From Baffinella frigidus (taxonomy: Eukaryota > Cryptophyceae > Cryptomonadales > Baffinellaceae): 28,798 bases of DNA. The position numbers and the translations under genes are program-made. The notes beneath the pieces were generated by a model, which worked only from the letters and a program-made list of their open reading frames with translations, did not search any database and was not told the DNA's origin. Position 1 is the stretch's first letter. Each line of letters opens with the position of its first letter. Location: the NCBI GenBank assembly GCA_026770585.1, contig MU646849.1, positions 169,781 through 198,578 on the forward strand. Reading direction: 5' to 3'. Positions 2,829 through 24,560 of the stretch are shown here, in pieces.

Positions 2829-2988
2829 ATGGCGACAATTTCATTCCTGCGCCTCGCCGGCATCCTATTCGCATCGCTCTTCGTCCTCATCGGGATCTCC
2901 CTCCAGCTCATCTCGGTCCGCTCCCCACCCTCACAAGCCACAACAGGACCGAAGTCGCGTTTTTCCAGGGACATTGATTTGCACTGCA
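2829..2988 (+). CDS. Exon E1: start codon and N-terminal membrane anchor
   Basis: The ATG sits in a strong Kozak context (GCCATGGCG). The first 30 residues begin MATISFLRLAGILFASLF and form a hydrophobic segment of about 24 residues, followed by a basic/polar stretch. This is typical of a signal anchor or uncleaved signal peptide. The donor GCA|GTGAGT at 2989 is near consensus and leaves phase 1. The next sure exon (E3) starts in phase 0, so at least one short exon must lie between them. Confidence 0.65.
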
Positions 2989-5900
2989 GTGAGTCGGATG
3001 ACAGCTCACTCTGGAGCTGTCATGTTACGTTGACTGCATTCTGTTGCACAGCGAAACACATCAAGGAACCCAAGCAGGCGCTGTGGTCCCTCTGGGTGGA
3101 ATGTGTGGGAAGACAGCTCAAGACACTTTACTGAACTTATGACGTCGGACAAAATTCAAAGTGTCCAGAGCGGGCTCGAGCTAATTTTCCGCGAAGGTGA
3201 GTTGACACCTACCCCAGCTTGGCCGGGCAGCTGTTCCGCGGCCGCGACGCCACCAGCACCCCAAAAGAGAACCAAATCGGGATATTTGCCCTGTCGTAGA
3301 TTTCACAGAAAGTCTACTCTGAGAGTAGACTCTTGGTGAAAAACAAGCTCAACTCCGTCCCCAGCTGGTTCTCTTCTGGTGGCTGGTGGCATGCCTTTTT
3401 CTGTTCGAGGCGTAACGTATCCCACACAGGGGACTTCGAAGGAATTTTGAACAACCCCTAAACGATAAGACCTAGGACCCTACGGTAGGCAACCTGTAGG
3501 GACATAGGGGGGTTCCTACGGATAAGGTAACGGAAACTCGGGCATTTCCTACCCGAAGATTCCTTCGTAGCCCGTTGTGTAGCCTGGCAGGGGCGGGGTT
3601 CTTCTAGACCCCGTGATGGGTGAGGGTTAGGGTTACCCTGAACCCCAAACCCAAAACCCGAAGGTGGAAGACATTTCTCTCAAGGGAATTTCCATCCGCA
3701 CGAGAAGTCAGATTGAAATTTGCACCGGTGGAGTGCTGAGCCGCTCGTTTCTCTTTAGGTCCTGCTGAGAAATAGCCTATGGGGTTTGCTTACCACGCAA
3801 GAGTGTGGGGCTGACCTGGGAAAACAAGCCAGTTCACACGGAATTTGCAACAACTTTCCGAAATTTCGATTTTTCTGTGGGAAGAATGTCCACTTACTCA
3901 AGAAATAGTAGAATTCTACTATTTCTCCTGTGGGTCACTCTGCCCTACACTCTTGCGTGGTGTACTGGCGGCCGTCTTGGCAAGATCTATGATTATTACA
4001 TCCTATAATAAAGGCCTCTTTCGTTTCGCGCTCGTTTCGCGCAGGGTGGAAATGCTAAACCCTAACATCCTAACATCCTAACATCCTAACATCCTAAACC
4101 CTAACATCCTAACATCCTAACATCCTAACATCCTAAACCCTAACATCCTAACATCCTCAACCGGGCTGGAAACCTGTACGGAGCCGCTACGTCACTAGAA
4201 CGAAGTCAATCACAGGGCTTACCTCTGTCTCTGTCTTTCTGGGCTCACCAATCTGGTGAGCCCGGGCTCTTTCCCGCTCCAAAGTCACTTTTTGGATTTT
4301 CAGGCTGGAAACCTGTACGGACCCTAAACCCTAACATCCTAACATCCTACACCAGGCTGGAAACCTGTACGGGGTCCCTCTCTCCGACATGTGCAAGGCT
4401 TACTCAGGTCTAACCCCTAAACCTTAAATCCTAAACCCTAACCTAAACCCTAAACCCTGAGCCTGAACCCCCAACCCCGAAACTCGAATTCCTAATCCCT
4501 AATCCCTAAAACATGAAAACTAAAATCTGAAACCTGAGCCCTAAACCCCAAACGCCAATCCCCAAACCACTAACCCCCAACCCGAAACCCGAAACCGAAA
4601 CGCAGGGTCGCCGGACTACTCAGACAAGGAGTCTTTCGACAAGCTGATTGACGCGGTGCTGGTCACGCGGAAACAATGCCTTGGGGGCCTGTCCACCAAC
4701 ATCACCATGTGCCCCCCCACACCACACACCACACACCCCACACCACACACCACACACCACACACCACACACCACAGCACGGTCGAATCGTTGCGTTTTTA
4801 GTGTTTTTATCTCGCCACACATCCCCCGCGATAACCTCCATTGCCGGTACGTTTCGCACGGTTGGGTCGAGAGTTCGTCCCATCGTTCCAATTCTTGATC
4901 CATCCGGGGTCACAGCTCGGGCGCGCATGCGTTTGCGCTTCTTAACGGCTTCCAACGAGCGAACAATCGCCCGTGAAAGCCCTTACGGATGCCTGGACAC
5001 ACCGTCTTGCGAGCGGGCATTGGATACCGCATTCAGTGTGATGACGTTTTGTTGCGTATTCCGTCGCACGAACCTGCTCTGCCAATCCAAATTTTGCCCT
5101 GTGTCATTTCAGGTGGGAGCAAACGCTCAATATATATATTTCTATGGGGAACGTGACCCTGGATATTATAGTTTGGCTGTGAGGATATTAGAAACAACTG
5201 GGAATTTTCAGGTCCGACATGGCCATTCTTCTGGTGTACGCAACGAGACATGGTTGTTTTTTTCAAGTCATTTCTCAACCCGAAAAACAACAACCACGTG
5301 AACGTGGATGTTCAAGACATCCAAGGCTTTTGAAGCATTAAAAAACAAAAACAATAGTGCTGTTCAAGACTTCGAAGGCTTTTGAAGGATTAAACAAAAT
5401 AATTAATAGTGCTGCTGAGCCCAGAAAGACAGAGACAGAGGTAAGCCCAGTGATTGACTTGGGTCTAGTGACGCGGAAGCAATGCCTATGATAGGGGACC
5501 CCGCTTCAAAGAGCCCGGGCCCTTTCCCGCTCTTAAGTTGACTTGTGCTACACACCCAGCTTGACTTGTGCTTCACACCCAGCTTGACTTGTGCTACACA
5601 CCCAGCTTTGTGCGACACACCCCAAGCTGTCAACTTGAGAATAGTCGTGATTAGTCAACCTCTTTTTTTTGTCATTATTATTATTATTGACGGACGCGTT
5701 TCGGGCGCAGGGCTGAGCGGGCTGAGCGCGTCGAGTGCTGCGAAAAGCACAGTCCTGGACCCTCCATCTGGTGCACCCTCGAAACCCGAAACCCCGGAAC
5801 TCGAAACGATGTACCCGAAATCCGGAACCCGGAACCCGAAACCATGAACCTGAGACCCGAAACCCGGAATCCGAGGCCCGGGACCACAGTCCTGGGCCCA

Positions 5901-8900
5901 CCGTCTGGAGCAGCCCCCGAGACCCAAACCCTCACCCCGGAACCCGAAACTCGAAACGATGAACCCGAAATCCGGAATCCGAGACCCGAAACCATGAACC
6001 ACAGTCCTTGACCCTGCGTCTGGTGCACCCTCAAACCCAAAACCCCGAAACTCGAAACGATGATCCCGAAACCCCGGAACCTGGAAATCCGAAACCCGGA
6101 ACCCGAAACTCGAAACCCGGAATCCGAGGCCCGGAACCACAGTCCTGGGCCCACCGTCTGGAGCAGCCCCCGAGACCCAAACCCCCGATGAACCTGAGAC
6201 CCGGAATCCAGGACCCGGAACCCGAAACCAGAAACTATGAACCCGGACCCGAAACCCTAACCCTGAACCCGAAAAAAAACGAGACCCGAAGACCGAAATC
6301 CGGAACCCGAGGCCCGAAGCCCTAACCCGAAACCCGAAACCATGAACCTCGGAACCGGAACCCAGAACCCGGAACATGGAGCCCGAAAACCGAAAAAACG
6401 AGATCCGAAGCCCTAAACCGAAACGCGGACATCAATCAAGGTACCTTTCGGGCATCGAAACCTTGAACATGAGACCTGGAACCCGAACCCCGAAACCCCC
6501 CGAAACCTGAAACCCGAAACGCTAACCACGGAACCTGGACCCCGCGGAACCCTGAACCCGAAACCCAAAAAAACGAGAGCCCCGAAGCGCTGACCCGAAA
6601 CTTGGCATGTTGCAGGCAACTCTCGGGGATCTGCGCCAAGCCCTGGCTCCTGGAGATCTCCCAGAAGGTGCGGTTCACTAACCTCATAGGATAATGGACT
6701 AAAAATGGGATAGTTAGGCCTACGGAATTGCCTGCCGTAGGCCGTAGGGCTCCTGTGACCAAAAAGTCCCTAGGATAGGTCAAAAGGAGCCAGCCCTGCC
6801 TCCTCGAGATCTCCCAGAAAGTGCGGTTCACTAACCACTCGAGAATGCTAGCGGGGCCTATTTAGAACCGAACATATAAAGTCTTTACTACACAAATGGT
6901 CAAATTTGTACCAGGATAAGTTAAAAGTAACCTCGCGCCTCGCATAAATTCTGCCAGGCACGAGGTTACTTTACCTTATCCTGGTACAAACATTTACAAC
7001 CTTTTCCCCCCCCATATAAATAGGCCCCTCTAGCGTTCTCGTGTGGAACCCGCGAGTGATTTGTACTGCGCGGGTATCTAATGCGGGCGGAATTTGTACC
7101 AGGACACGCGAGGAGTACTCAACTGGTGGTGGTGATCGTGTTCAGGGTTCAAAGACCACCGAAAAGGTAGAACAGTCCCTGCATTTATGACCACCCACAA
7201 GGTAGAGCAGTCCCGGCAATGATTGTGAACCGTCTGTATCGCCACGCTGTAAAGCAACTTGCCATCCCTACACCCCTACATGGGGTACCTCGTTCATAAC
7301 AAACCGCCTCCCCCTACAACCCTTCAGTAGGCCTATGCCTAGGGCCCTACGGTGGTCCTAGGGGGGGGGCGGTTTCTTATGAGCGAGGTACCCCTGTACA
7401 CCCTGACAACGGTCCACCTGGCACCCCACGTCGCACCAGGAAGTTTGTACCTGAAACCAAGCCCCCCCCCCTCCTGGAAACAGAATAACTCGGACATCAC
7501 GGACCTCACTCCGATGGAGAAGATGGAGCTCTTCACCTCTGTCCTCGGTATACCCCACATCCTACACCCCTGCACTCTGAACCCCAAGCCCTAAGCCCCA
7601 AACCCCAAACCCCAAACCCCACGCCCCAGACCCCAAACCCCAAGCCCTACACTCTAAACCCTAAACCCCAAACCCCAAACCCTAAACCCTGAACCCCAAC
7701 CCCTAAAACCTAACCCCAAACCCGAAGCCCGAAACTTCAAACTCTAAACCCGAAACTCGGACCTAGGGGACTTCATCGGCGTGCAGAGCGCGGATGGGTA
7801 CATGGATGCCAACCCCGAATTCTGGTACCGAATCACGAATCCCAAAGCCCTAACCTGAAACCCTGAGCCCAAAACCCAAATCTCCCAATTCCGAATTCCG
7901 AATCCCAAATCCCCAAACTCAAACCCCAAAACAATGAGCCCGGAACCCCAAAACCCAAAACCCAAAACCCAACCCCAAAACCCAAAACCCCAAACCCCAA
8001 ACACCAAACCAGGTGCAAGAACTGCCCGGACGACCAACGCAAGAACTGCCCCTTCGATCCTGCCCCCGGCTCGGCGCGCGAGAAGGTGCGCGCCCCTCTG
8101 TTTTCGAGTTCAGGATTTCGGGGGGGTTGACGCGCAACGTCCGCAGCGCTAGGCGAGCACGCGCGCCGCTTGCTCTGCACTGGCGCGCGCGGGTTGGGGT
8201 TTAGGGTGTGGGGTTGAGGGTTGAGGGTGTGGGGTTTGGGGTGTGTGGTGTGGGGTTTAGGGTTTGGGTGAGTTGGTGAGGGTTGAGGGTTCTGGAGAAC
8301 TGTCTGGACGACCAGCGCGAGAACTGCCCGTTCGACCCTTCCCCTGGCTCCGAATGTGAGTAGGTGCGAGCCCATCGTTTTCGGGTTGAGCGTTTGGCGT
8401 CTCTTTTGTTGGGTTCAGGGTTGAGGGTTGAGGGTGGGGCCTTCGAGCGGGAGGCGGTGAGTGCGGGGTTTAGCGTTGATGGGTTATGGGTTGGGGTGGA
8501 GAGGTTTGGGTCCACTTTTTCGGGTTTCGGGGTGTGGGTTGAGGCCCATGCCACGCAAGGTTGCTGGTGGGTGTTGAATTTTCAAAACCCTGTCAGGATA
8601 GGGTTTGCAACTTTTGAAAACCACTGCCTTGAGGGGAAATTGACTTTTGGCAACCCCTTCCAAGAATATGGCGTGGTGGCTCGGCCGGTGAGGCGGTGCG
8701 AGTCCCTGCGTGTAGGGTTTCGGGTTTGGTTTTAGGGATTGGGTTTACGGTTTAGGGTTTTCTGGCTGGAGGGCGCTCCGAACACTAAACACTAGAACCA
8801 AAACCAAAACCAAAACCAAAAACCTACACCCAAAACCCCAAATGCCCAACGCCGAACGCTCAACTCCAAACCTCAAACCCTCACACCCAAATCCTGACAC

Positions 8901-11900: not shown

Positions 11901-14900
11901 GACGATGTTCTCGAGCGTGTCCCTCCCGGCCTAGCGCCAACTCGCCCGTGTAACCCCCAAACCCCAAACCCCAAACCCCAAACCCCAAACCCCAAACAAC
12001 TCGCCCATGTAAGCCCTGAACCCTGGACGACGAGGAAGCACTTAACCCTAAACCCTAAACCCTAACCCCTAAATCCTATGCGCCAACTCGCCCACGTCCG
12101 CCCCAAACCCCAAACCCCAAACCTCAAACCCGAAAGCCGAAATCCGAAAGCCGAAAGCCGAAAGCCGAAAGCAGGTCCGCGATCTCATTCAACACCGCGA
12201 TGCTCGCCATCGCCCTCTCCATCATCGGTATACCCCCTAAACCCTCACCCCTGAACCCTGAACCCTGAACCCTAAACCCTAAACCCTTCAGGAATTGATC
12301 AAACCCTGCATCCGGTGAGCGTGTCGAGATTGCGAGTTTGTTGTGCACCAGGAATACCGTGACTCGGACAAGTCCCACCAAGTGATACCGCTCTAGCAAC
12401 CAATGCGCCGTGTACTGTCCAGTAAAGCCTGATGTGTTTCACATGGGTGTGGCCGGACCTCCTGATTAAATTCACTACTCGCGCCCACAGGGAATTGGAG
12501 CCGTTCCTTCAGAAATCAGGCCAACGGCTCCAATTTCCTACGGACGGAAGAACATATATTCACTACTAACGCGTTTATATTCGGCATTAGTAGTAAAGCC
12601 CGATGTGTTTCACAGGGGTGTGGCCGCTGGAGTTCTCGGGGGCCTCGGACCTCCTCTGGGCGCACTTAACTCAACTACTCACTACTTACTTTACTACTCG
12701 CTCTTGTAGGGAATTGGAGCCTTTCCATCACGAATCAGGCCAACGGCTCCAATTCCCGATGGGCGCAAGGTTTTATTTTTAATACTAATTCAGTCAATTT
12801 CGATGCTGAAGCCTGGTGTGGCGCATGAGGCCAACGGCTCCAATTCCCTACGGGGATGAGGATGTCTATATTCGATGCTCAACCATGCACTGGCAACCAG
12901 GGGTCTGGCCGCTGGAGTTCTCGGGTGCCTCAGACCTGCTTGCGCGCTACGCCGTCTGCGAGGTGGGGGTTTGGGGTTTGAGTTTAGGGTTTAGGGTTTG
13001 GAGTCACGCCGTCTGCGAGGTTGCGCGCCTGTCCTCCTCTTCCTCTTCCTCTCCGTCTTGTTCTCTGCAGAGAAGGGACGGAGAAGAGGGCTGTGTTGGG
13101 GCCCTCCCGGTGTTGCTCGCGTGCCTCCCGGAGGCCCCCGAAGGGTCCTATCATCCAGTGATCATCCAGTGTGGGTCCTATCGTGCCTATCTTGCGCGCC
13201 TTTCCGCCTCTTCCTTCTCATCCGCCGCCTTCTTGACGTTCTTCTTCTTCGTTAGCGTAGAGCGGTGTGCAGGGAAGGTGGCCGCTAAAATAGTGGGAAA
13301 GTGGGGAAAGGTTTTGGACCAGAACCGACTCCCCCCCCTCCTTTTGTTCTCTCGAGGTTTGCATTTATGTAACGGCCAGTTTCTCTCTGCCCACTGGAGG
13401 CTGGACTATTTTCAAAGTGGGGTTGTTGAATTTGTACCAGCATAATGTTGTCCAACCTCGTGCCTGACAGAATTTCTGTCAGACACGTGACCAAACCCGG
13501 AGATCTGTGTGAAAAATGCTACACATCGCCCCACTTGTACAGGCAACCCGGTTTTAAAATACTCGCTTTTCTGGCCGTCTCGAGTGGACTCACCGCTCCA
13601 AGGGATACGCATCTCACTGAACTCAACACCCTCACCCCTAAACTCAACCCCCTAAACCCTAAACCCTAAACACTAAACCCTAAACCCCATACCCCAAACC
13701 CCAAACCCTAAACCACAAACCCTAAACCCTAAGCCCTAAACCACAAAAAGGCACCTCTCGTATCACGCAGGGCCGTCCTATCCCTTAAGTGGCCAGCCGG
13801 TCAAAATTGACCCGCAAGAGGTCCTAGGCAGGTCCTAGGGCCCTACGGTAGGGCGTATGCGCCTACTGGTCACTTAAGGGATACGAGACCGGCCGGACCA
13901 CCTGGGCTTCACCGCAGGGCCTGGCATGTCTAGAATGGAGCTTCTGATATCTGTCGAAGGGAGCCTAAAATGTCTGAGAGGGACATCCGAGGCTCCCTTC
14001 CCTGCCTGACATCATAGGCTCCCTTCCAGACATTACCGGCACTCACCCGAGGGGGCTCTTGGAAGCGAGGCACTTGTTCTCGAAGACATCCCAGGCTCCC
14101 TTCCAAACATCATGGGCTCCTTTCCGACCTTCCTTACAGACATCAGAGGCTCCCTCCCAGACATCCTAGGCTCCCTACCTGACATCCTAAGCTCTCACCC
14201 ACACAGACATCCTAGGCTCCCTTCCACCACAGACATCCTTAGGCTCCCTCCCAGACATCCCAGGTTCCCTTCCGACATCCTAAGCCCTGAGCGATCTCAC
14301 CCGAGGGGGCTCTTGGAAGCAAGGCACTTGTTCTCGAAGACATCCCAAGCTCCCTTCCAGACATCCTACGCTCCCTTCCGCACAGACATCCTACGCCCCC
14401 TCACACATTCATAGGCTAACGGACTAAAAATGGGGTAGTTAGGCCTACGGTATTGCCTACCGTAGGCCGTAGGGCTCCTACGACCAAAAAGTCCTAGGAT
14501 TTTGGCCTACAGTAGGAGGTCCCTAGGCAATGCCGTAGGCCCAACTAGCCCATTTGTAGTCCATGGCCCTATTAACCTCTCCTGCATGCAGGGGCGCGGC
14601 GCCCCGGCCGTGCTCTACGAGTCCGGGCAGACCGCCGAGGGGTTCACCGCTGGGCCGACGCTCTACAACCACATCCCGTGCGAGGTGCTCCCCAGACCCT
14701 ACGTTTACATGTATTGTACACGTGTGCCGCGAGTATTATAGTCTGGTTGTATGGTATACATGTGTTGTACACCCCCTTCCTGGTACAAAACGTATCACCT
14801 GCTACGTTTAACAACGTATTATACATGTCCCGGACGAGACCGGGCGGACCGCCCAGGGGTTCCCCGCAGGGCCGACTCTCTACAACTACATCCCGTGCGA

Positions 14901-17422
14901 GGGTACTGCCGAACGTCTGTCAAGCTTTTGGGGTTGCTGGCGTAGGACGGGGACCTCGTTCCTCCCTGTCAAGCTAGTGGATTTTATAAGTGGATTGCAT
15001 AAGTGGCCAACTCTCCACTAGCTCGCTGTCAGCTTGCTGCAGTGCTTCCAACGTGGTGCAGCGTCACCGCTGCTTATGAGACTGGGCACGCAGGTGGAGA
15101 AGACAGATGTTGACACTCCCAACCTCTCCCCTCGCGTGTTCTCCACCCACCTTCATAGGCTAACGGACTAAAAATGGGGTAGTTAGGCCTACGGTATTGC
15201 CTACCGTAGGCCGTAGGGCTCCTAGGCCGTAGGGCTCCTTGGCCGAACCTTGCTCGAAACCAGGCGGACAAGACCCTCTGCAACCATACAGCGCTGCGCA
15301 GAGAAGTTGGCAACGGGAAATAATGGGAAATCGACAAATTGGAGCCATTTTGCAACTTTTGAGAAATTTAGACCATAGATTTCTCAAAAGTGGATAAAAT
15401 GGCTCCAATTCCCCCATTTTCCCATTTTTCGGTGGCCAACTTCTCTGCGCAGCGCTCTACCCCGTGCGAGGTGATGCTGAAAGCCTGCCACGCCAGGTCA
15501 CTCGTGCAAATTCCAGGACGCGACGTTTCGTTTCTTTTACCCAGAATCGAAAATCCCGGTACAAAATAAAATTGAAAAGACGACTGGTCTCTGAAATTGC
15601 AGTTAAACCACCGGAGGCGGGTCAAAAAAACTTTGAAAACAAACAAAGCTGCACACGCTAGGCAGTGTGCAGTAATTTTTATTGGATTGTCACGTCCCCG
15701 CCCGCTTTGGGGGCGGCCACGTGACCGACTTCCAAACAAAGACGCCTGCAATCGACATTTAAAAAGGGTGTTGGATCAGCCTCGTGTAAAAGGAGAACTT
15801 GTTTGGACGCGACTATGGTACAAAATATTACGTTTTTTAAATTGGTTATAAAGCCGTCTATTGTACGGTGTGTACCGTTGGCTTTCTCCGTGACAGGACC
15901 GACCCCAAACCCTAAACCCTAAACCCTAAACCCTAAACCCTAAACCCTAAACCCTAAACCCTAAACCCCAACCCCCAACCCCTAAACTCCAAACCCTAAA
16001 CCCCAAACCTTAACCCCCTGAAACAGGACCTGAACTCGAAGGGCGAGGTCGGGATGAACCCCTTCGTCTCCGCGCTCAACACCTACCACGCGGGGTCAGT
16101 TGTCTACCTTTTTATACATTTGTGGTATATACATGTATTGTAGCCTCTCTTCCAGGTACAAAACGTACATACACGTAGTTCTATGGTGTATCCCTTAAGT
16201 GGCGGACGGGCGATTCATCGCCCTAACTCGCCCTAGGCAGGTCCTAGGGCCCTAGCGTAGGGCGTATGAGCCTACTCGCCAGTTAAGGGATACGTGTATT
16301 GTACACGAGGATCTCAACTCGAACGGCGAGGTCGGGATGAACCCCTTGGTCTCCTCAAAGAGGAGAGCTCAACACCTACCACGCGGGGTGCGTTTCACAT
16401 GTTTGTATTTTATGCGTTTTAGATGTGTTTTACACGTTTTGGATGTGTTTTATCCTCTTGCCGGTTTCATTTCGATAAGTCATAAATGGAGGTTACCGGT
16501 ATTCTGCTGAATTTCAACCCTAAATTTCATCCTTTTTGAAATCTGAAAGCGCAGATCGTCGAGATTTGGCCTTCAGCTCCAGATTCTGCTAAAAAAATTC
16601 GAGCTGCGATGAAATCTTGAGATCTTTACTACAGGCCAAAGGTCAAACAAATGGCTCCAACTAAAGGTATTATTCTACTATAAAACCGGCAAGAGGATAC
16701 GTTTTCGATGTGTGTGATGCGTTTTAGATGTATTTTATGCGTTTTATTCTCTACACGTACTTGTATGGTATGCATGTATTGTACCCTCTGTGCCTGGTAC
16801 AAAACGTACATACATGTAGTTACATGGTGTATCCCTTAAGTGGCCATCCGGTCAAATTGACCCGCAAGAGGTCCTAGGCAGGTCCTAGGGCTCTACGGTA
16901 GGGCGTATGATCCTACTGGGCATTTAAGGGATACGTGTTTTGTACACGAGGACCTCAACTCAAACGGCGAGGTTGGGATGAACCCCTTGGTGTCGGCGCT
17001 CAACAACCACCACGCGGGGTGCGATTCCCGAAACCCGAAATCCGGATCCCTAAATCCGGAACCCGAAACCCTGAACCCGAAGCCCGAATCCCTGACTGCC
17101 GCCTGACCGTCGATTCTCTCTCCAAACCCGAAACACGGAACCTGACAGCCTGATCCCCCAACCCGGAACCTGGAACCCGAAATCTTAAACCCGGAACCCG
17201 AACCCCGAAACCCGAAACCCTGAACCCGAGACCCGAAACCCGAAACCCTGAACCCGAGACCCAAAACCCGAACCCTGAACCCGAAACCCTAACCCAGATA
17301 TGTCACGGGCTGCACGCTGTCGATCCTTTCGCTGCTTATGCTTCTCGCGGTGAGCTCCCTCTCTCCCTCCCTCCCTCCCTCCCTCCCTCCCTCCCTCCCT
17401 CTATGTTCTCTCTCTCTCTCTC

Positions 17423-17454
<32 letters not shown>

Positions 17455-17984
17455 GCGTCAAGGATCGAAAAAGCAGCACTCAGGGTGGCTCTCGAATGTT
17501 CTTCGAGCAGAAACCCCAAACCCCAAAACTCAAACCACCAAACCCCAAACCCTAAACCTCAGCCCCAAGCCGCCCTAAGCCCTCAGCCCCAAGCCCTAAG
17601 CCCTAAGCCCTAAGCCCTAAGCCCTACAGGGGTACCTCGCTCATAAGAAACCAACTCCCCCTAGGACCCTACAGTAGGGCCCTATGGTGGTCCTAGGGGG
17701 GTGGTCGTTTCTTATGAGCGAGGTACCCCTGTAAGCCCTAAGTAAGCCCCAAGCCCTACGCCCGAAGCCCTACGCCCGAAGCCCTAAGCCCTAAGCCCTA
17801 AGCCCTAAGCCCTAAGCCCTAAGCCCTAAGCCCTAAGCCCTAAGCCCTAAGCCCTAAGCCCTAAGCCTGAAAGGCTAATCCCTAACCAACCGAACAGGTG
17901 ATCTCGAAGCACGCGGAGGTAGTCTTCGAGCAGAAGCTTGCGTCGGACCACAACCGCCCCTCCGAAGGCAACGACTCATTGTAA
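2829..17984 (+). CDS. Unrecognised four-pass membrane protein, multi-exon gene
   Basis: Rebuilt by hand from exon islands: 2829-2988, possibly 3052-3104, then 4356-4407, 4606-4708, 5113-5178, 6616-6667, 7484-7547, 7767-7824, 8013-8085, 9610-9660, 10378-10487, 11531-11620, 12175-12227, 12901-12962, 14592-14684, 16027-16094, 17298-17349 and 17898-17984. From 4356 on, all phases agree and the sum is 1134 nt, ending in TAA. The predicted product has about 448 residues: a membrane anchor at 5-30; a loop of about 250 residues with many Cys (a CKNC..NCPF cluster near 204-216) and sequons NIT, NVT and NNS; membrane segments near 282-306 and 312-330 joined by a short loop; a second loop; a fourth segment near 404-424; and a polar tail. 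Sequons and Cys suggest that loop 1 is extracytoplasmic. I know no family with this order. The exon chain is strong; the function is unknown. Introns hold telomere-like filler and exon fragments. Confidence 0.8.
3052..3104 (+). CDS. Candidate exon E2
   Basis: The acceptor TTCTGTTGCACAG at 3051 would close a 63-nt intron. The exon would encode about 18 residues including KHIKEPKQALWSLWVEC. It takes the phase left by E1 and, with donor TGT|GTGGGA, ends in phase 0 as E3 needs. The evidence is phase bookkeeping plus moderate splice sites. An alternative donor, GAAG|GTGAGT at 3199, belongs to a frame that does not join E1. Confidence 0.3.
3105..4042 (+). other. Intron-type interval with three inverted repeats
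   Basis: Besides the possible donor near 3199, I see a short hairpin at 3313-3333 (AGTCTACTCTGAGAGTAGACT). A weak inverted repeat spans about 3424-3580, with arms around CTTCGAAGGAATT and GATTCCTTCGTAG enclosing CTAGGACCCTACGGTAGG. A strong palindrome lies at 3792-3962: outer arms ACCACGCAAGAGTGT / ACACTCTTGCGTGGT and core AATAGTAGAATTCTACTATT. No exon could be placed with confidence. Confidence 0.45.
4043..4160 (+). repeat. Telomere-like repeat, CATCCTAA variant
   Basis: Tandem AACATCCTAACATCCT units are interrupted every few copies by AAACCCTAACATCC, the CCCTAAA-type motif. A further short copy stands at 4321-4350. The local unit is clearly different from that in other introns of the same gene. 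It lies in the intron before E3. Confidence 0.8.
4165..4320 (+). repeat. Two upstream echoes of exon E3 around a family H fragment
   Basis: The first 17 nt of E3 (GCTGGAAACCTGTACGG) occur at 4165-4181 and 4304-4320, the second copy with its own CAG acceptor. Between them (about 4209-4290) lies a fragment of the family H repeat (GAGCCCGGGCTCTTTCCCGC). The intact exon follows at 4356. Confidence 0.7.
4356..4407 (+). CDS. Exon E3
   Basis: The acceptor CACCAG at 4355 opens a frame encoding AGNLYGVPLSDMCKAYS plus one base. The donor is CAG|GTCTAA. The leftover G joins GG of E4 to give Gly, so the frame runs on. It belongs to the start of the long loop 1. Two 17-nt fragments of it stand just upstream. 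Confidence 0.7.
4408..4605 (+). repeat. Degenerate telomere-like intron (E3-E4)
   Basis: The whole intron consists of drifting CCCTAAACC-type units (CCTAAACCCTAAACCCTGAG and the like) running into AACCCGAAACCGAAACGCAG, the acceptor of E4. Confidence 0.75.
4606..4708 (+). CDS. Exon E4
   Basis: After acceptor ACGCAG it encodes SPDYSDKESFDKLIDAV and on through a KQCLGGLST segment to the sequon NIT. It ends in phase 2 at CAT|GTGCCC. The acidic, soluble character fits loop 1. A fragment of its 3' half is repeated at 5451-5487 in the next intron. Confidence 0.75.
4715..4777 (+). repeat. CACAC-rich microsatellite
   Basis: Imperfect ACCACAC / CCCACACC units just after the donor of E4. On the minus strand it reads GTGTGGT. 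No coding meaning. Confidence 0.8.
5113..5178 (+). CDS. Exon E5
   Basis: The acceptor is the strong TGTCATTTCAG. Read in the phase left by E4, it gives WEQTLNIYISMGNVTLDIIVW with sequon NVT, ending at donor CT|GTGAGG in phase 2. A second reading frame, using a donor near 5211, is also open here (residues VGANAQYIYFYGERDPGY). I prefer the first because it joins both neighbours in phase and has the better donor. It is more AT-rich than the other exons. Confidence 0.55.
5405..5665 (-). repeat. Family H repeat with internal tandem repeats
   Basis: It holds the family H signature (GAGCCCAGAAAGACAGAGACAG, GAGCCCGGGCCCTTTCCCGC, CAACTTGAGAATAGTCG). It also has three tandem copies of about 23 bp (GACTTGTGCTACACACCCAG) at 5541-5612. 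An echo of exon E4 (5451-5487) is embedded. Orientation is reversed relative to the copies at 18147-18280 and 26818-27096. Confidence 0.6.
5775..6600 (+). repeat. Telomere-like repeat, AACCCGAA variant (E5-E6 intron)
   Basis: About 800 bp of drifting AACCCGAAACCCGGAACCCG-type units, with GAAACGATGAACCCG inserts. Longer blocks also repeat: ACAGTCCTGGGCCCACCGTC, TGGAGCAGCCCCCGAGACCC at 5890 and again at 6140. These show larger segmental duplications inside the array. The open frames across this region are artefacts of the repeat. Confidence 0.85.
6616..6667 (+). CDS. Exon E6
   Basis: The acceptor is ATGTTGCAG. It encodes QLSGICAKPWLLEISQK and ends in phase 0 at AAG|GTGCGG. A 3' echo follows at 6788-6836, which repeats the exon end together with the first bases of the intron. 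Confidence 0.75.
6685..6776. mobile_element. Family C element, partial copy
   Basis: Begins CATAGGATAATGGACTAAAAA and carries GTTAGGCCTACGG and GCCGTAGGGCTCCT. The complete relative is at 14410-14572 and another partial copy at 15154-15240. It is inserted between E6 and its 3' echo. Confidence 0.65.
6835..7046. mobile_element. Family D palindromic element, copy 1
   Basis: Outer termini CCACTCGAGAATGCTAG and CTAGCGTTCTCGTGTGG are inverted repeats. Inner arms TTTGTACCAGGATAAG and CTTATCCTGGTACAAA enclose GTAACCTCG repeats. The element is AT-rich and about 212 bp. Relatives lie at 13391-13587, 18661-18878, 18931-19109 and 19939-20149. It has no ORF of note. Confidence 0.75.
7277..7398. mobile_element. 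Family A palindromic element, copy 2
   Basis: Left arm GGGGTACCTCGTTCATAA, right arm TTATGAGCGAGGTACCCC, with a CCTATGCCTAGGGCCCTACGG centre. It lies in the intron before E7. Confidence 0.8.
7484..7547 (+). CDS. Exon E7
   Basis: A C-rich tract leads into the acceptor GGAAACAG. It encodes NNSDITDLTPMEKMELFTSV and on to phase 1 at CTCG|GTATAC. The sequon NNS supports an extracytoplasmic loop. Phase 0 at its start matches the end of E6. Confidence 0.8.
7572..8012 (+). repeat. Telomere-like introns around E8
   Basis: Drifting AACCCCAAACCCC and CCCTAAACCC units fill both short introns, 7548-7766 and 7825-8012. The AACCCCAA variant dominates. Confidence 0.8.
7767..7824 (+). CDS. Exon E8
   Basis: The acceptor is CGGACCTAG. 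It encodes DFIGVQSADGYMDANPEF and ends in phase 2 at TG|GTACCG. The TG joins G of E9 to make Trp. Both junctions keep the frame. Confidence 0.75.
8013..8085 (+). CDS. Exon E9: Cys-rich segment
   Basis: The acceptor is AAACCAG. It encodes CKNCPDDQRKNCPFDPAPG and a short tail, with three Cys in thirteen residues suggesting disulphides in loop 1. It ends in phase 0 at GAGAAG|GTGCGC. A mutated copy lies at 8297-8366. Confidence 0.8.
8197..8560 (+). repeat. G-rich telomere-like tract with decayed copy of E9
   Basis: GGGTTTAGGGTGTGGGGTTG-type units run in the opposite orientation to most of this gene's introns. Embedded at 8297-8366 is a copy of E9 (encodes ENCLDDQRENCPFDPSPG) in which an in-frame TAG stands where the intact exon has its final Lys codon. 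A related acidic/GC block precedes each copy's donor. Confidence 0.7.
8720..9600 (+). repeat. Telomere-like arrays of intron E9-E10
   Basis: Several variants stand side by side: AACCAAAACC at 8790-8825, AACCCGAAACCC at 9220-9260, perfect CCCTAAACCCTAAACCC at 9288-9365 (about eleven units) and again at 9440-9490. The perfect runs equal the plant/green-algal telomere unit and form interstitial telomeric sequence. Short G-rich patches flip orientation near 8720-8765. Confidence 0.85.
9610..9660 (+). CDS. Exon E10
   Basis: The acceptor is TGAACCAG. It encodes VTDHGLTADFVRCDDKA in phase 0 to phase 0, donor GCT|GTGGTA. A downstream copy at 9843-9892 is frameshifted by lost bases, so this one is taken as the working exon. 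Confidence 0.75.
9833..9895 (+). pseudogene. Frameshifted copy of exon E10
   Basis: Begins with the same AACCAGGTGACGGACCACG and ends with the same TTTCGTGCGCTGCGACGACAAG. Small indels between them break the frame. The surrounding sequence (9680-9770) also contains a direct repeat around ATCCCGCGTGGGATCCAAAG. Confidence 0.75.
10148..10332 (+). repeat. TACATGTATTGTACAC repeat, tandem copies
   Basis: Units such as CTCTACATGTAGTTATA and CTATACATGTATTGTACAC repeat in tandem and end in CCCCTTCCTGGTGCAAAACG. Single relatives lie at 14703-14795, 16115-16188 and 16750-16830, all in introns of this gene. Confidence 0.75.
10378..10487 (+). CDS. Exon E11, longest internal exon
   Basis: The acceptor is TTAAAACAG. 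It encodes VYQEWVKALFPDFTEKDIAS followed by MRYIFENKCLASKSPL, ending in phase 2 at the consensus donor CGG|GTGAGT. It is the end of loop 1 just before the second membrane segment. Its 3' end with donor is repeated several times downstream. Confidence 0.85.
10488..11062 (+). repeat. Tandem array of E11 3'-end echoes plus intron units
   Basis: The block GAGAACAAGTGCCTCGCTTC..CCCCCTCGGGTGAGT (end of E11 with its donor) recurs at about 10626-10668, 10755-10797 and 10938-10976. It is separated by short units of the type GGAAGGGAGCCTAGGATGTC. The ORFs across it are artefacts. The array is present in inverted form at 13918-14404. Confidence 0.85.
11100..11530 (+). repeat. Telomere-like intron with 5' echoes of E12
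   Basis: CCCTAAACCC and CCCTCATCCC-type units surround partial copies of the start of E12. One at 11271-11333 reads GGTACATCCTGTCGGTGGGG and on with a small deletion. Shorter ones (AAAGGTACATC) stand near 11194 and 11437. Confidence 0.75.
11531..11620 (+). CDS. Exon E12: second membrane segment
   Basis: The acceptor is GGAACGCAG. It encodes YILSVGPMLALLATMFSIVS then LPAYCANSP, a clear hydrophobic segment of about 24 residues. It ends in phase 2 at CCCAT|GTCACC. Upstream lie copies of its 5' part and downstream copies of its 3' part. Confidence 0.85.
11700..12100 (+). repeat. 3' echoes of exon E12 in telomere-like filler
   Basis: Copies of the exon end occur at 11719-11776 (GACGATGTTCTCGAGCGTGT on to CTCGCCCATGT), 11900-11954, 11996-12012 (AACTCGCCCATGTAAG) and 12079-12096, each with a GT after CCCAT or its variant. 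They are spaced by AACCCCAAACCCC or CCCTAAACC units. Confidence 0.85.
12175..12227 (+). CDS. Exon E13: third membrane segment
   Basis: The acceptor AAAGCAG follows an array of CGAAAGC units. It encodes SAISFNTAMLAIALSII, hydrophobic, after a Met made with E12. It ends in phase 1 at ATCG|GTATAC. Only about seven residues separate it from the preceding membrane segment. Confidence 0.8.
12415..12860 (+). repeat. Segmental repeats upstream of E14 with short hairpins
   Basis: Two units begin with AGTAAAGCC(T/C)GATGTGTTTCACA and continue into GTGTGGCCG..; the second (12591-12660) holds a 5' echo of E14 (CCGCTGGAGTTCTCGGGGGC). Each unit carries a hairpin made of GGAATTGGAGCC.. and ..AACGGCTCCAATT (12491-12538 and 12709-12757). 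A partial third copy is at 12828-12855. Confidence 0.7.
12901..12962 (+). CDS. Exon E14
   Basis: The acceptor is GGCAACCAG. It encodes VWPLEFSGASDLLARYAVCE, the start of loop 2, ending in phase 0 at GAG|GTGGGG. A 16-nt echo of its end (ACGCCGTCTGCGAGGT) follows at 13008-13023. Confidence 0.8.
13024..13255 (+). other. Pyrimidine-rich region, possible extra exon
   Basis: A polypyrimidine tract ends in GTTCTCTGCAG at about 13074. The following frame, which agrees in phase with E14, encodes RRDGEEGCVGALPVLLACLP. A second polypyrimidine tract ends in TTCTTCGTTAG near 13257. I could not find a donor that joins E15 clearly. E14 joins E15 directly in phase, so this region may simply be intron. Confidence 0.3.
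13257..13400. mobile_element. Family F element, diverged copy
   Basis: Left arm TAGAGCGGTGTGCAGGGAAG matches the terminus of the element at 15289-15456 (TAGAGCGCTGCGCAGAGAAG in the same orientation). A diverged right arm (GGCCAGTTTCTCTCTGCCC) ends near 13392. Confidence 0.5.
13391..13587. mobile_element. Family D element, copy 2 (diverged)
   Basis: Shares with the other D copies the ends CCACT..AGG and CTCGAGTGG, the inner TTTGTACCAGCATAA, the central hairpin CTGACAGAATTTCTGTCAG, and GTGACCAAACCCG plus CCACTTGTACAGGC motifs. Confidence 0.6.
13625..13750 (+). repeat. Telomere-like repeat tract
   Basis: CCCTAAACCCTAAACCCTAA units with AACCCCAAACCCC and ACCACAAACCC variants, in the E14-E15 intron. 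Confidence 0.85.
13779..13883. mobile_element. Family B palindromic element, copy 2
   Basis: TATCCCTTAAGTGGCCAGCC at the left and GTCACTTAAGGGATA at the right. Almost identical to the copy at 465-569. Confidence 0.85.
13918..14404 (-). repeat. Inverted copy of the E11 echo array
   Basis: The reverse complement contains two copies of the E11 3' end with donor (CTCACCCGAGGGGGCTCTTGG at 14044 and 14297 on the + strand) and many CATCCTAGGCTCCCTTCC units. The segment TGAGCGATCTCACCCGAGG matches the inverse of 10962-10985, so the copied block includes 10750-10995. It lies in the E14-E15 intron. Confidence 0.85.
14410..14572. mobile_element. Family C palindromic element, complete
   Basis: Left arm ATAGGCTAACGGACTAAAAA..GTTAGGCCTACGGTATTGCC, right arm GGCAATGCCGTAGGCCCAAC..TAGTCCATGGCCCTAT. 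About 163 bp, non-coding. Partial relatives at 6685-6776 and 15154-15240. Confidence 0.75.
14592..14684 (+). CDS. Exon E15
   Basis: The acceptor is CATGCAG. It encodes GRGAPAVLYESGQTAEGFTA then GPTLYNHIPCE, phase 0 to phase 0, donor GAG|GTGCTC. Loop 2, polar. An upstream echo (13888-13922), a nearly full downstream copy (14826-14893) and a short 3' echo (15461-15473) exist. Confidence 0.8.
14826..14893 (+). pseudogene. Diverged copy of exon E15
   Basis: Encodes DETGRTAQGFPAGPTLYNYI and PCE in one frame but lacks the first third of E15. It ends GAGGGTACTG rather than the GAGGTGCTCC of the intact exon. It follows another copy of the TACATGTATTGTACAC repeat. Confidence 0.7.
15154..15240. mobile_element. 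Family C element, partial copy 3
   Basis: CATAGGCTAACGGACTAAAAA to CCTAGGCCGTAGGGCTCC, matching the left half of 14410-14572. Confidence 0.7.
15289..15456. mobile_element. Family F palindromic element
   Basis: Ends CAGCGCTGCGCAGAGAAGTT and AACTTCTCTGCGCAGCGCT. Inner arms AATTGGAGCCATTTT / AAAATGGCTCCAATT and AACTTTTGAGAAAT / ATTTCTCAAAAGTGG around a short loop. About 168 bp, strongly self-complementary. Confidence 0.8.
15487..15860. repeat. AT-richer segment with family D-like hairpin core
   Basis: The core at 15688-15726 (GTCACGTCCCCGCCCGC and GCGGCCACGTGAC) is a hairpin. It is preceded by GTGTGCAGTAATTTTTATTG, like the GTGCAGTAATTTTCACACAA beside the hairpins at 18770 and 20030. Outer ends are not clear. 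It is probably a larger or diverged relative of family D; short ORFs here have no support. Confidence 0.45.
15903..16020 (+). repeat. Interstitial telomeric array (CCCTAAA)n
   Basis: About eight nearly perfect CCCTAAA units at 15906-15968, then AACCCC variants, ending at the acceptor of E16. Confidence 0.9.
16027..16094 (+). CDS. Exon E16
   Basis: The acceptor is TGAAACAG. It encodes DLNSKGEVGMNPFVSALNTY and HA, phase 0 to phase 2, donor GG|GTCAGT. Two later copies exist; the one at 16951-17018 keeps the frame and length. This copy is preferred because it has the best acceptor. Confidence 0.75.
16189..16292. mobile_element. Family B palindromic element, copy 3
   Basis: TATCCCTTAAGTGGCGGACG at the left, CGCCAGTTAAGGGATA at the right. 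Inserted in TGGTG|TA..TA|CGTGT, the same site as copy 4. Confidence 0.85.
16311..16389 (+). pseudogene. Second copy of E16, broken by a small insertion
   Basis: Matches E16 from GATCTCAACTCGAACGGCG to CACGCGGGG. It carries extra bases (TCAAAGAGGAGA region near 16354) that break the frame. Preceded by GTACACGAG instead of AAACAG. Confidence 0.75.
16452..16698. repeat. Inverted-repeat segment bounded by CCTCTTGCCGGTTT
   Basis: CCTCTTGCCGGTTT at 16455-16468 and AAACCGGCAAGAGG at 16683-16697 are exact inverted repeats. The inner part is AT-rich and contains ATTTCAACCCTAAATTTCATC. It lies between two copies of GTTTTAGATGTGTTTTAC-type sequence, suggesting insertion into that repeat. Confidence 0.65.
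16830..16933. mobile_element. Family B palindromic element, copy 4
   Basis: TATCCCTTAAGTGGCCATCC at the left, GGGCATTTAAGGGATA at the right, followed by CGTGTTTTGTACACGAG and a copy of E16. Confidence 0.85.
16951..17018 (+). CDS. Intact alternative copy of exon E16
   Basis: 68 nt, the same length as E16, open in the same frame. It encodes DLNSNGEVGMNPLVSALNNH and HA. It differs from E16 at several residues. It has a usable donor (GG|GTGCGA), but the upstream AG lies in GTACACGAG without a pyrimidine tract. It could be a mutually exclusive exon or an unused duplicate. Confidence 0.45.
17024..17296 (+). repeat. Telomere-like intron before E17, AACCCGAA variant
   Basis: GAACCCGAAACCCTGAACCC-type units, the same variant as at 5775-6600 but 11 kb away. 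Confidence 0.8.
17298..17349 (+). CDS. Exon E17: fourth membrane segment
   Basis: The acceptor is TAACCCAG. It encodes YVTGCTLSILSLLMLLA, strongly hydrophobic, phase 2 to phase 0, with consensus donor GCG|GTGAGC. The hydrophobic stretch runs on into VIS of E18. Confidence 0.85.
17352..17456 (+). repeat. CCCT / CT microsatellite just after E17 donor
   Basis: (CCCT)n followed by (CT)n, about 100 bp, starting a few bases after the GTGAGC donor. Strong purine/pyrimidine strand bias. Confidence 0.9.
17515..17890 (+). repeat. CCCTAAG-variant telomere-like arrays
   Basis: Uniform (CCCTAAG)n runs at 17585-17625 and 17776-17868, interrupted by a family A element and by CCCTACGCCCGAAG units. A fragment resembling part of E18 (TTCTTCGAGCAGAA) lies just before, at 17498-17511. 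Confidence 0.9.
17625..17733. mobile_element. Family A palindromic element, copy 3
   Basis: TACAGGGGTACCTCGCTCAT and ATGAGCGAGGTACCCCTGTA are perfect inverted ends, with TA at each border. It is inserted inside the (CCCTAAG)n array. Confidence 0.85.
17898..17984 (+). CDS. Exon E18: C-terminal tail and stop
   Basis: The acceptor is CGAACAG. It encodes VISKHAEVVFEQKLASDHNR and PSEGNDSL then TAA. The polar tail of about 25 residues follows the last membrane segment and would face the side opposite loop 1. Its parts are echoed downstream at 18086-18140 and 19447-19490. Confidence 0.8.
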   Translation: MISKHAEVVFEQKLASDHNRPSEGNDSL

Positions 17985-17999
17985 AGTCGCTCGCGTCCG

Positions 18000-18056
18000 C
18001 TGCCAAAAGTGGATGGGGTGACTTAGTGTCCAAAAGTGGATGGGGTGACTTAGTGG
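18000..18056 (+). repeat. 27-bp direct repeat
   Basis: CCAAAAGTGGATGGGGTGAC followed by TTAGTG occurs twice in tandem, about 15 bp past the stop codon. Confidence 0.85.
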
Positions 18057-18146
18057 GAGGGCTCCTGGGACGGGCCCGCCTCGAGACGCAGCCCTGGGCC
18101 TCGGAACACACCCGCCTCTCGGAAGGCAAAGACAAATAGTGCAGCA

Positions 18147-18280
18147 CTGCCTCACTCGCGTTGGCCGACTATTCTCAAGTTGACGTGCTGGGTTTGCGGT
18201 GCAAATCCGTCAACTTCGGGGCGGGAAAGAGCCCGGGCTCGCCAAAGGGTGCGCCCAAAAAGACTGCGACAGAGCTAGAT
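18147..18280 (+). repeat. Family H repeat, copy 3
   Basis: Contains CGACTATTCTCAAGTTGACG, TGCTGGGTTTGCGGTGCAAA and GGGAAAGAGCCCGGGCTCGC, all shared with 5405-5665 (inverted) and 26818-27096. Confidence 0.7.
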
Positions 18281-18400
18281 ACAGGGGTACCTCGCCCATA
18301 AGAGACCGCATGCCCCCTAGGACCACCGTAGGACCCTACACATGGTCCTACTGTAGGGTCGTGGGGGGTGGCGGTTTCTTATGAGCGAGGTACCCCTGTG
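18280..18400. mobile_element. Family A palindromic element, copy 4
   Basis: Ends TACAGGGGTACCTCGCCCAT and ATGAGCGAGGTACCCCTGTG. It is inserted exactly at the end of the family H copy. Confidence 0.85.
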
Positions 18401-18459
18401 GTGTGAGGACTCTTAGGACGAGCCCGCCTCGGGGCGAGCGACCCGGAGTAGAGGAGAGA

Positions 18460-18569
18460 TGTGAGGACCTAGGCCAGCTCGGCTAGGACGAGCCCGCCTC
18501 GGGATGGCAATGGCTCCAATGCCATCCCGAGGCGGGCTCGTCCTATCCTAGCTGGCCTAGGTCCTCACA
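18460..18569. repeat. Near-perfect 110-bp palindrome
   Basis: Left arm TGTGAGGACCTAGGCCAGCT..GGCA pairs with the right arm over about 50 bp with only two mismatches; the loop is about 10 bases. A further partial arm copy (TGTGAGGACTCTTAGGACGAGC) lies at 18402-18440. Confidence 0.9.
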
Positions 18570-18660
18570 AGAGATTTGGTCTGATGAATTAGGGGTCGAA
18601 GGTGAAAATTATTGGGTACCCGTAAAATCGCGAAATCCAGGGTGTTACAGCACGGCATCC

Positions 18661-18878
18661 CCACTCGAGACTGGAAGAGGGTCTATTTTAAAAGTTTTAA
18701 GTTTACAAGTCCTTTACAAGTGAAGAAAACAATAATTGTGCAGTAATTTTCACACAAATAGGGGCGTTGGTCACGTATCTCGCGGAATTGCTCGAGATAC
18801 GTGACCAAGCCTGCCCGTGACTGGTACTAAGTTTAACAACCCCACATTTAAAATGGTCCCATTTCTAGCCTCGAGCGG
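18661..18878. mobile_element. Family D element, copy 3
   Basis: CCACTCGAGACTGGAAGAGG at the left, CTAGCCTCGAGCGG at the right. Inner TTTTAAAAGTTTTAAGTTTA / TAAGTTTAACAACC..ATTTAAAA. Central hairpin TTGGTCACGTATCTCG / CGAGATACGTGACCAA. Almost the same as the copy at 19939-20149. Confidence 0.8.
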
Positions 18879-18930
18879 CCAGCCGGGCGCGACCGCGCGA
18901 GCCACCAAGTGAGTAGATGTTTGGGCTATT

Positions 18931-19109
18931 CCTGTCGAGAATGCTGGAGCACCCTAATTACATGTGGGGTTGTAAGAGTTTGTGCCAGGAACAGGACACC
19001 ACTCCGGAATTTCCGGGGGGTCGTGACCAAACCCGCGAAAGTTACTACACAAAGGGCCACTTGTAAAGGACCCAGGTTTTAAATTGGGTGCTCCAGCGTT
19101 CTCGAGTGG
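18931..19109. mobile_element. Family D element, copy 4
   Basis: Ends TCGAGAATGCTGGAGCACCC and GGGTGCTCCAGCGTTCTCGA. The centre TCCGGAATTTCCGGGG precedes GTCGTGACCAAACCCG. About 179 bp. Confidence 0.8.
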
Positions 19110-19119
19110 ATAACATGTT

Positions 19120-19237
19120 CAGGGGCTCCTCGCTCATAAGAAAGCGCGCCCCTCCCTAGGACCACCATAGTGCCCTAGGCATAGGGCTACTGTAGGGTCG
19201 TAGGGAGGGCCGTCTTCGTATTATCGAGGTACCCCCA
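19120..19237. mobile_element. Family A element, copy 5 (diverged ends)
   Basis: AGGGGCTCCTCGCTCATAAG at the left, TATTATCGAGGTACCCCC at the right. It abuts the preceding family D copy. Confidence 0.7.
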
Positions 19238-19312
19238 CACAGCGGACTACAAAAGAATTTCGTGAATGACCCCTAAGTGGATAATCCATAGGACCCTACG
19301 GTAGGCAACCCG

Positions 19313-19433
19313 TACAGGGGTACCTCGCCCATAAGAAACCGCCCCTCCCTAGGACCCTACAGTAGGCCTGTGCCTAGCGCCCTACGGTGGTCCTAGGGGG
19401 GTGGGCGTTTCTGATGAGCGAGGTACCCCTGTA
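19313..19433. mobile_element. Family A palindromic element, copy 6
   Basis: TACAGGGGTACCTCGCCCAT and ATGAGCGAGGTACCCCTGTA with TA at both borders. The centre GTAGGCCTGTGCCTAGCGCC resembles the copy at 1-97 closely, including the GTTTCTGATGAGCG arm. Confidence 0.85.
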
Positions 19434-19500
19434 ACCCCTGGAAGGACGTGAGCACTCGGAGGTGCTTTTCGCGCAGAAGCTCGCCTCGGATCCAATATCA
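19434..19500 (+). pseudogene. Displaced echo of exon E18
   Basis: GAGCACTCGGAGGTGCTTTT and CGCAGAAGCTCGCCTCGGA resemble the first two thirds of E18 (encodes EHSEVLFAQKLASD). It stands 1.5 kb beyond the stop codon. Confidence 0.65.
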
Positions 19501-24380: not shown

Positions 24381-24420
24381 GATTTAGGGTTTACGGGTTC
24401 GGGGTTCAGGGTTTAGGGTG

Positions 24421-24541: not shown

Positions 24542-24560
24542 GGCGTGCCTTGGTTTCTCC

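Follow-up and report, generated by a model that had tools for sequence, protein, structure and literature searches.

Partial copies of exons beside the intact exons of a nuclear gene of Baffinella frigidus and of unrelated genes of its genome

The gene and its partial exon copies

The 28,798 bp stretch of DNA analyzed here (the window; C537:169781-198578) comes from the nuclear genome of Baffinella, an Arctic alga that belongs to the cryptophytes. It carries a gene on the plus strand (2829-17984 in window coordinates), and partial copies of most of its exons, called echoes below, are found close to the intact exons. The gene product has 424 residues, with a reading frame that is unbroken across 18 exons (X1-X18). 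Exons have 52-110 bases, introns have 188-1629 bases, and every internal border is AG/GT. X1-X15 are based on the match to P0001 (T484DRAFT_3172556 from Baffinella frigidus), the closest protein to the gene product, while X16-X18 are based on phase and homologues. The first 356 of the 374 residues of P0001 are identical to the final gene model. The tail of P0001 is the translated window intron after X15 (14685-14738), followed by a stop, and X16-X18 are missing. Thus, P0001 derives from the window locus, and its annotation is truncated. X4 (AERAERVECCEKHSPGPSIW, 5711-5770) was recovered through the P0001 match, after which a spurious candidate exon (5212-5233) was replaced. Homologues from Guillardia theta and Hemiselmis show 43-44% identity. 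An earlier model with 382 residues was used for the first homologue search and for the Pfam search, which returned no family (the best, DUF4505, had an E of 0.067, under its cut-off). By eye, hydrophobic stretches in the protein look like membrane segments.

Single exons were searched against the window with blastn-short (E<=0.05, self-matches excluded). This resulted in 24 significant echoes, which originate from 13 of the 18 exons. The same search returned 0 matches from the reversed window, and 3 matches summed over 20 dinucleotide shuffles. A preliminary description of this DNA had claimed that partial exon copies lie near intact exons, and this is borne out. Of the 24 matches, 22 are on the same strand as their exon and at most 1.5 kb away from it, i.e., they are in direct orientation near their source.

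Exons and echoes are on the plus strand unless stated otherwise. No significant echo in the window was found for X1 (2829-2915, with the start codon), X6 (7484-7547), X7 (7767-7824), X13 (12175-12227) and X17 (17298-17349). X2 (4356-4407) has two upstream echoes: echo a (4132-4181) comprises exon bases 1-17 and 33 intron bases (94% identity), and echo b (4301-4320) comprises cag and exon bases 1-17 (100%). X3 (4606-4708) is followed by a copy of its internal bases 40-76 (5451-5487, 81%). Three echoes are found downstream of X4. Echo a (5885-6000, bases 38-60 plus 80 intron bases) is weaker than the E cut-off, echo b (5997-6243, bases 35-60 plus 230 intron bases) is in tandem, and echo c (6135-6257) comprises bases 35-60 plus 95 intron bases. 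The downstream echo of X5 (6616-6667) has bases 24-52 plus 16 intron bases (6792-6836, 93%). Between the two lies a copy of a repeated hairpin-like element (6684-6776), which by eye is only part of the element. Also downstream are the echoes of X8 (8013-8085; bases 6-73 plus 28 intron bases at 8296-8390, 80%), X9 (8960-9016; bases 39-57 at 9148-9166) and X10 (9610-9663). The latter echo (9836-9889) consists of 7 intron bases and exon bases 1-48, contrary to the polarity described below.

X11 (10378-10487) has the most complex set. Echo a is a tandem unit with bases 73-110, the donor and intron (10623-10752), and the unit of echo b (10752-10974, exon part 10752-10791) continues into echo c (10932-10971). 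Two further copies of bases 71-110, echo d (14047-14086, 100%) and echo e (14301-14340, 97.5%), are on the minus strand, 3.5 kb downstream of X11. X12 (11531-11620) has an upstream echo with cag and exon bases 1-61 (11270-11332, 94%) and downstream echoes with bases 29-90 plus 63 intron bases (11708-11834), bases 40-90 (11901-11964) and bases 69-90 (12075-12110). X14 (12901-12962) is preceded by cag and exon bases 1-47 (12613-12663, 88%), and X15 (14592-14684) is followed by bases 26-93 (14834-14902, 90%). X16 (16027-16094) is copied as a whole exon, twice, each time with AG and GT. Echo b (16308-16389) has a 10-base insertion that results in a frameshift, while the frame of echo c (16949-17020, DLNSNGEVGMNPLVSALNNHHA) is open. 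X18 (17898-17984, with the stop codon) has downstream echoes with bases 43-78 (18098-18133) and bases 11-50 (19451-19490).

The pieces that had previously been noticed at 4165, 4304, 11271 and 19490 were recovered. The decoy donors named at that stage are at most 7 bases from the echo donors 10661, 10792, 11773 and 12009, the last of which belongs to a short X12 piece that is weaker than the E cut-off. Copies had been attributed to 11 exons, with a numbering that cannot be matched to X1-X18 throughout. X4 is apparently absent from that list, yet it has the pieces that start at 5885, 5997 and 6135.

Local origin, polarity and occurrence in other genes

The echoes originate locally. When the complete 1275-nt coding sequence was compared to the 382-Mb assembly (1364 contigs; E<=0.1), 32 matches were listed, all of them within this gene (18 exons and 14 echoes). 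No copy of its exons elsewhere in the 382 Mb is among the matches listed; as this search omits simple repeats and very common words, all its counts are lower bounds. The window exons had 0 matches in nine lettered sampled stretches (about 64 kb) and the CCT1 locus.

The preliminary description had presented the phenomenon as a property of one gene. This does not hold, since other genes show echoes too, and a restriction to one collapsed or misassembled locus is thus not what was found. Ten sampled 10-kb stretches (L034-L040, L042-L044) consist entirely of N, which ruled out random sampling of the genome. The additional genes are a non-random sample, having been picked from conserved families with obtainable sequence. 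Echoes were found for 28 of the 60 exons or segments tested (from the window, CCT1, CCT4, kinesins, dyneins and a third CCT). Outside these 60 are L013 (telomere-like repeats), L014 (contig edge) and segment 4 of kinesin C506, which is itself an echo of segment 3 (4 matches).

CCT1 was found with a query joined from open frames. Its protein (P0022) is transcript-derived, and its relatives are named T-complex protein 1 subunit alpha. Contig C94 encodes all 552 of the 552 residues of P0022 in 18 exons, five of which have a total of six echoes, all in an adjacent intron. For CCT4 (P0143 from Baffinella, with relatives named subunit delta), 309 of 433 residues were modelled in 8 exons. Four of these have a total of six echoes, and the reversed locus has none. 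In the remaining genes, only segments matched by Pfam profiles were tested, and their borders are approximate. Echoes were found for all three segments of kinesin C506, for two of three segments of kinesin C101 and for the single segment of dynein C13, while the reversed loci returned none (0/6 for the kinesins, 0 for the dynein). A kinesin exon (L046, reverse complement 3915-5209) has seven echoes, five upstream 5'-pieces and two downstream pieces. The upstream echoes form an array with a spacing of 145-192 bp, in which two intron types alternate between the pieces. This arrangement suggests an initial duplication with differing sequence between the copies and a subsequent duplication of the pair.

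The echoes have a strong polarity. For the window, this had already been proposed, and it is confirmed: all four upstream echoes have the exon 5' end, and the midpoint falls into the 3' half of the exon for 15 of the 18 same-strand downstream echoes, two of which are the whole-exon copies of X16. The pooled set consists of 52 same-strand echoes from the window, CCT1, CCT4, dynein C13 and both kinesins, with the inverted X11 copies and X4 echo a left out of the polarity counts. The midpoint is in the 5' half of the exon for 21/21 upstream echoes and in the 3' half for 27/31 downstream echoes (Mann-Whitney p=2e-9, n=52). The latter count is 25/29 without the two whole-exon copies of X16, whose midpoint (0.507) is uninformative on polarity. 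Outside the window, the counts are 17/17 upstream and 12/13 downstream (Fisher p=1.5e-7).

Exact borders can be evaluated for the 34 same-strand echoes of the three modelled genes. Upstream echoes have only the 5' border in 10/10 cases, and downstream echoes have only the 3' border in 17/19 cases (Fisher p=3.3e-6). One of the remaining echoes has both borders, and four have none. With each exon side counted once, the distribution is 8/0/2/12 (p=1.4e-4). The downstream exceptions are X10, with only the 5' border, and X16 echo b, which is a whole exon for which the alignment extension halted at the 10-base insertion. Further exceptions in the window are X3 and X18 (without a border), X16 (whole, twice) and X11 (two inverted copies).

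Spacing, filler and decay of the copies

Of the 29 echoes with a single border, eight are separated from the exon by another echo. These were dropped, which left 21 nearest pairs from three genes. The gap is below 60 bp in eight pairs, while 108-565 bp of non-aligning sequence separate the copies in the other 13. The echoes thus occur in two geometries. Head-to-tail adjacency with nothing in between is not the overall pattern, and a direct repeat that flanks inserted sequence is present in 13/21 pairs. Tandem cases are X4, X11, X12 downstream, CCT1 X7 and X10, and CCT4 X7 (gaps of -4 to 43 bp), and these share 51-230 intron bases. Close pairs share this amount of intron in 7/8 cases, while separated pairs share only 1-28 bases (median 6). 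Among the nearest pairs, the gap is negatively correlated with shared intron (rho -0.71, p=0.0003) but not with identity (rho +0.39, p=0.08). The same trend is seen for all 29 single-border echoes (shared intron: rho -0.58, p=0.001; identity: rho +0.25, p=0.19). Since shared intron falls with the gap while identity does not, the gap is unlikely to result from age alone.

At X5, the part-element in the gap starts at the first base past the duplicated stretch; other copies of this element are at 14409 and 15153. Whole palindromic elements in some other gaps resemble later insertions by eye, so that gap lengths are not pure. The two inverted X11 pieces are within 13983-14417 and would fit as filler that was copied from nearby.

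Several additional patterns were considered and rejected. For 21 echoes with a gap of at least 60 bp, the exon fraction is non-uniform (p=9e-5), which looked like a splice-site excess of echo ends, but a detection-aware test gave P=0.34. Eight of these 21 had another echo in between, hence the count by nearest pairs given above. A nucleosome-sized spacing (median 173 bp, 53 spacings) was dropped, as the spacing of other local duplications varies broadly (158 pairs, quartiles 157-398 bp). We also dropped, as a general rule, the idea that echoes are long target-site duplications of palindromic elements, since the CAGGGGTACCTCG-ended elements seem by eye to be flanked by TA only. Filler is not mainly telomere-like: the telomere-like share is 0-0.56 in 34 between-partner stretches and at least 0.25 in 7/34, and no enrichment is claimed. 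By a different measure, masking of simple or telomere-like sequence covers 28% of the intron bases in the window.

Telomere-like heptamers are abundant in the introns (4055-4157, 7580-7756, 9216-9567, 15902-16017, 17732-17867 and others). By eye, the sense strand mostly has their C-rich form (CCCTAAA), in many cases just before the acceptor. CTAAC or CTAAAC within these heptamers could act as branch site. Palindromic elements with CAGGGGTACCTCGC ends, apparently flanked by TA, are at 7271-7404, 17619-17739, 18280-18399, 19120-19235, 19308-19440 and 24415-24547. A second palindromic kind, with TCCCTTAAGTGG ends, is at 13779-13885, 16232-16294 and 16830-16935. A dispersed repeat family (starting with GGAGCGGGAAAGAGCCCGGGCTCACC) occurs in both orientations (4190-4285, 5413-5473, 18213-18277 and 27023-27085).

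Local direct duplications are also found off modelled exons: the 13 loci surveyed have 0-5.7 such pairs per kb of unmasked sequence. Since exon models cover just three of these loci, exon echoes will account for some of the pairs counted in the others. It looks as if the echoes are what a general local-duplication process leaves visible at exons. Coverage by local duplicates is 45% in exons vs 20% in introns for the window and 8% vs 4% for CCT1. No exon preference is claimed, since a slowly changing exon keeps pairs recognizable for longer.

Decay was analyzed for 25 of the 34 same-strand echoes of the three genes (990 aligned bases). Echo and exon differ by 51 synonymous changes, 49 non-synonymous changes and 5 indels. 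A fully neutral pair would be expected to show a ratio of about 26:74 (p=1.2e-7 against that observed). According to our own calculation, constraint on the real exon but not on the echo would make about 41% of the changes synonymous. The decay of the echoes is thus near neutral, with a small unexplained synonymous excess. In the echoes examined, the splice dinucleotides are retained in most cases (AG 10/13, GT 14/20), and there is thus no systematic loss of decoys. The transcript-derived CCT1 protein does not include any of the six CCT1 echoes. At two sites, the changes in the echo resemble quasi-palindrome mutation, as they yield a perfect hairpin (11310-11330, AGACGATGTTCTCCATCGTCT) or a small palindrome (16351-16365, CTCCTCAAAGAGGAG).

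A further observation concerns the genome at large. G000:C709:130108-134621 has two HSP70 matches of equal score and opposite orientation, which are open over the whole 599-position match. This may be a recent inverted pair or foreign DNA.

Origin of the copies

We consider it likely that DNA is frequently duplicated locally across exon borders, that the copies are often accompanied by unrelated filler, as in break repair, and that they decay thereafter. Stretches of about 20-260 bp would often be copied a short distance away, with their orientation kept. A copied stretch that includes one exon border and no other would leave the gene with one whole exon. An extra half would be found upstream if the acceptor border is copied and downstream if the donor border is copied. 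Duplication across one border would thus yield the polarity by geometry, which random nearby insertion would not. Some copies would be placed head to tail, but more often non-aligning sequence would be in between, either filler from the same event or later insertions. Most likely, staggered breaks or offset nicks would be repaired by fill-in and joining, in some cases with the capture of DNA, and the additional piece would subsequently decay as intron. Under exon definition, splicing would pass over a half exon, and the preliminary description's view that the splicing machinery must deal with the decoys is not supported in that form. Since most of the extra pieces have one splice site, duplication would be cheap and its products would persist.

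Comparable processes are described for other systems. In the potato RdRp gene, a tandem duplication over an intron-exon border is reported to have created an intron (PMC4974935). There, as here, the segment crosses one intron-exon boundary, and the border already present supplies most of the splice signals. However, that report concerns a single case in one gene, for which a new intron is documented. In Baffinella, there are many copies per gene, several genes are affected and filler is frequent, but none of the copies is shown to have given a new intron. In human and mouse cells, fill-in by CST-Pol alpha and end joining at staggered breaks are described to result in small tandem duplications (PMC8355091). 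These are likewise short, side-by-side direct duplications, and the mechanism would yield polarity. They differ in size, as the insertions described are below 100 bp, while aligned copies reach about 260 bp here and filler is common. In maize, filler DNA is reported to be copied from near the break and inserted at the join (PMC2686159). The source is close to the break, and the inverted X11 copies are also explicable that way; the maize cases as described are, however, linked to deletions, in contrast to the retained duplications at exon borders seen here. In primates, telomeric repeats are reported to be inserted at breaks, sometimes with a target-site duplication (PMC2246262).

Several points weigh against this interpretation. 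The comparison covers a single genome, so that direction, timing and the assignment of filler to the same event are presumed. Border-crossing duplication does not explain why two X11 copies are inverted or why X16 was copied in full. Echo density varies: within 1.5 kb, none was found for three segments of dynein C65 or for two segments of the third CCT (on C39, which we take to be CCT6; a weak match 5.2 kb off was excluded from the count), and four segments of dynein C23 also had none. The controls are imperfect. CCT1 exons have five weak matches in other sampled stretches (0 in the window), the reversed CCT1 locus has a match for 1/18 CCT1 exons, and the CCT1 locus has a match for 1/8 CCT4 exons. 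The dynein C13 segment has one match in the window and may therefore contain a dispersed repeat. Finally, synonymous changes (51%) exceed the expected 41% or so, and weak constraint or conversion may act on some echoes.

The preliminary description had invoked tandem duplication across an exon-intron border. Crossing of one border, the retention of one whole exon and the polarity fit this proposal, but its plain head-to-tail form is not supported, given the 13 gapped pairs among 21, the inverted X11 copies and the copying of X16 as a whole. Plain tandem duplication could still apply if all gaps result from later insertions and decay. The clear tandem cases with shared intron and the insertion-like palindromic elements in some gaps are in favor of this. 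It would, however, be expected that identity falls with the gap, and only shared intron does; at X5, the partial element begins exactly where the duplicated stretch ends. As it accounts for the polarity but not for filler, inverted copies or whole-exon copies, we regard this explanation as somewhat doubtful.

Exon borders may themselves be sites of break and refill. Breaks linked to transcription or splicing would split exon edges and insert filler, and would thus enlarge or create introns. This is suggested by the separated pairs, in which the copied stretch ends at a median of 6 bases from the splice site. If true, introns would grow outwards from splice junctions, each with an exon echo as its birth mark. 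We consider this unlikely.

Are the copies functional, i.e., alternative or mutually exclusive exons, or regulated decoys under selection? Mutually exclusive exons arise by tandem duplication of whole exons, and the copies adjoin the parent exon. X16 is alike, while nearly all other echoes are partial. Echo c of X16 is the only one of the 24 window matches with a whole exon, both splice sites and an open frame, and it could be an alternative exon. Retention of most splice dinucleotides and a synonymous fraction above the fully neutral expectation (51 vs 26 of 100) also point in this direction. This excess, however, is mostly expected from constraint on the real exon alone. Most echoes are devoid of one splice site and of part of the exon, about half of the changes are non-synonymous, X16 echo b is frameshifted, a kinesin echo has an in-frame stop, and all six CCT1 echoes are absent from the CCT1 protein. 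A function for the copies in general is quite unlikely.

Similarly improbable is a copy-and-paste process, in which mobile elements, introners or reverse-transcribed pre-mRNA bring exon pieces to nearby sites. Inverted X11 copies at a distance of 3.5 kb, repeated hairpin-like elements within several fillers and the many echoes whose ends are only a few bases from the splice site would be consistent with it. As in the case of introner elements, the introns hold repeated elements in several copies; the echoes, however, are exon pieces at one locus and are not dispersed. Matches to the coding sequence were confined to their own locus (32/32 listed in 382 Mb, a lower bound), random reinsertion would not be expected to result in strong polarity, and the tandem arrays take in intron.

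An assembly artefact, with two haplotypes or collapsed repeats placed side by side, could be suspected in a draft from Illumina data and AllPathsLG (Baffinella sp. CCMP2293, 534.5 Mb, PMC9756366, presumably the same assembly) with all-N stretches and with P0001 listed on a 306,883-bp contig while the window is on one of 277,013 bp, but it is very improbable, given that the copies show 74-100% identity where they align and have non-synonymous changes, that their outer flanks mostly do not match, that polarity is seen and six genes are affected, and that a contig with echoes encodes the complete transcript-derived CCT1.

Local duplication across exon borders is thus the interpretation that we prefer. 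Single border-crossing duplications are already known. For such a density, and for frequent partial exon copies in adjacent introns, no report is among the matches listed in a search of open-licence papers by title and start of the abstract. The word "intron" is absent from the main text, as available, of the Baffinella genome paper (PMC9756366). For genome annotation, the echoes call for caution. An echo can pass as a separate match to a conserved family, as does the second match of kinesin C506, which has an in-frame stop, and the published model of the window gene ends inside an intron.

As a border-crossing duplication made an intron in potato, the formation of echoes may be a step on the way to the gain or growth of introns. 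With many oriented events in one genome, Baffinella would offer a readout of intron growth, of the persistence of partial exons and of the tolerance of splicing for half exons.

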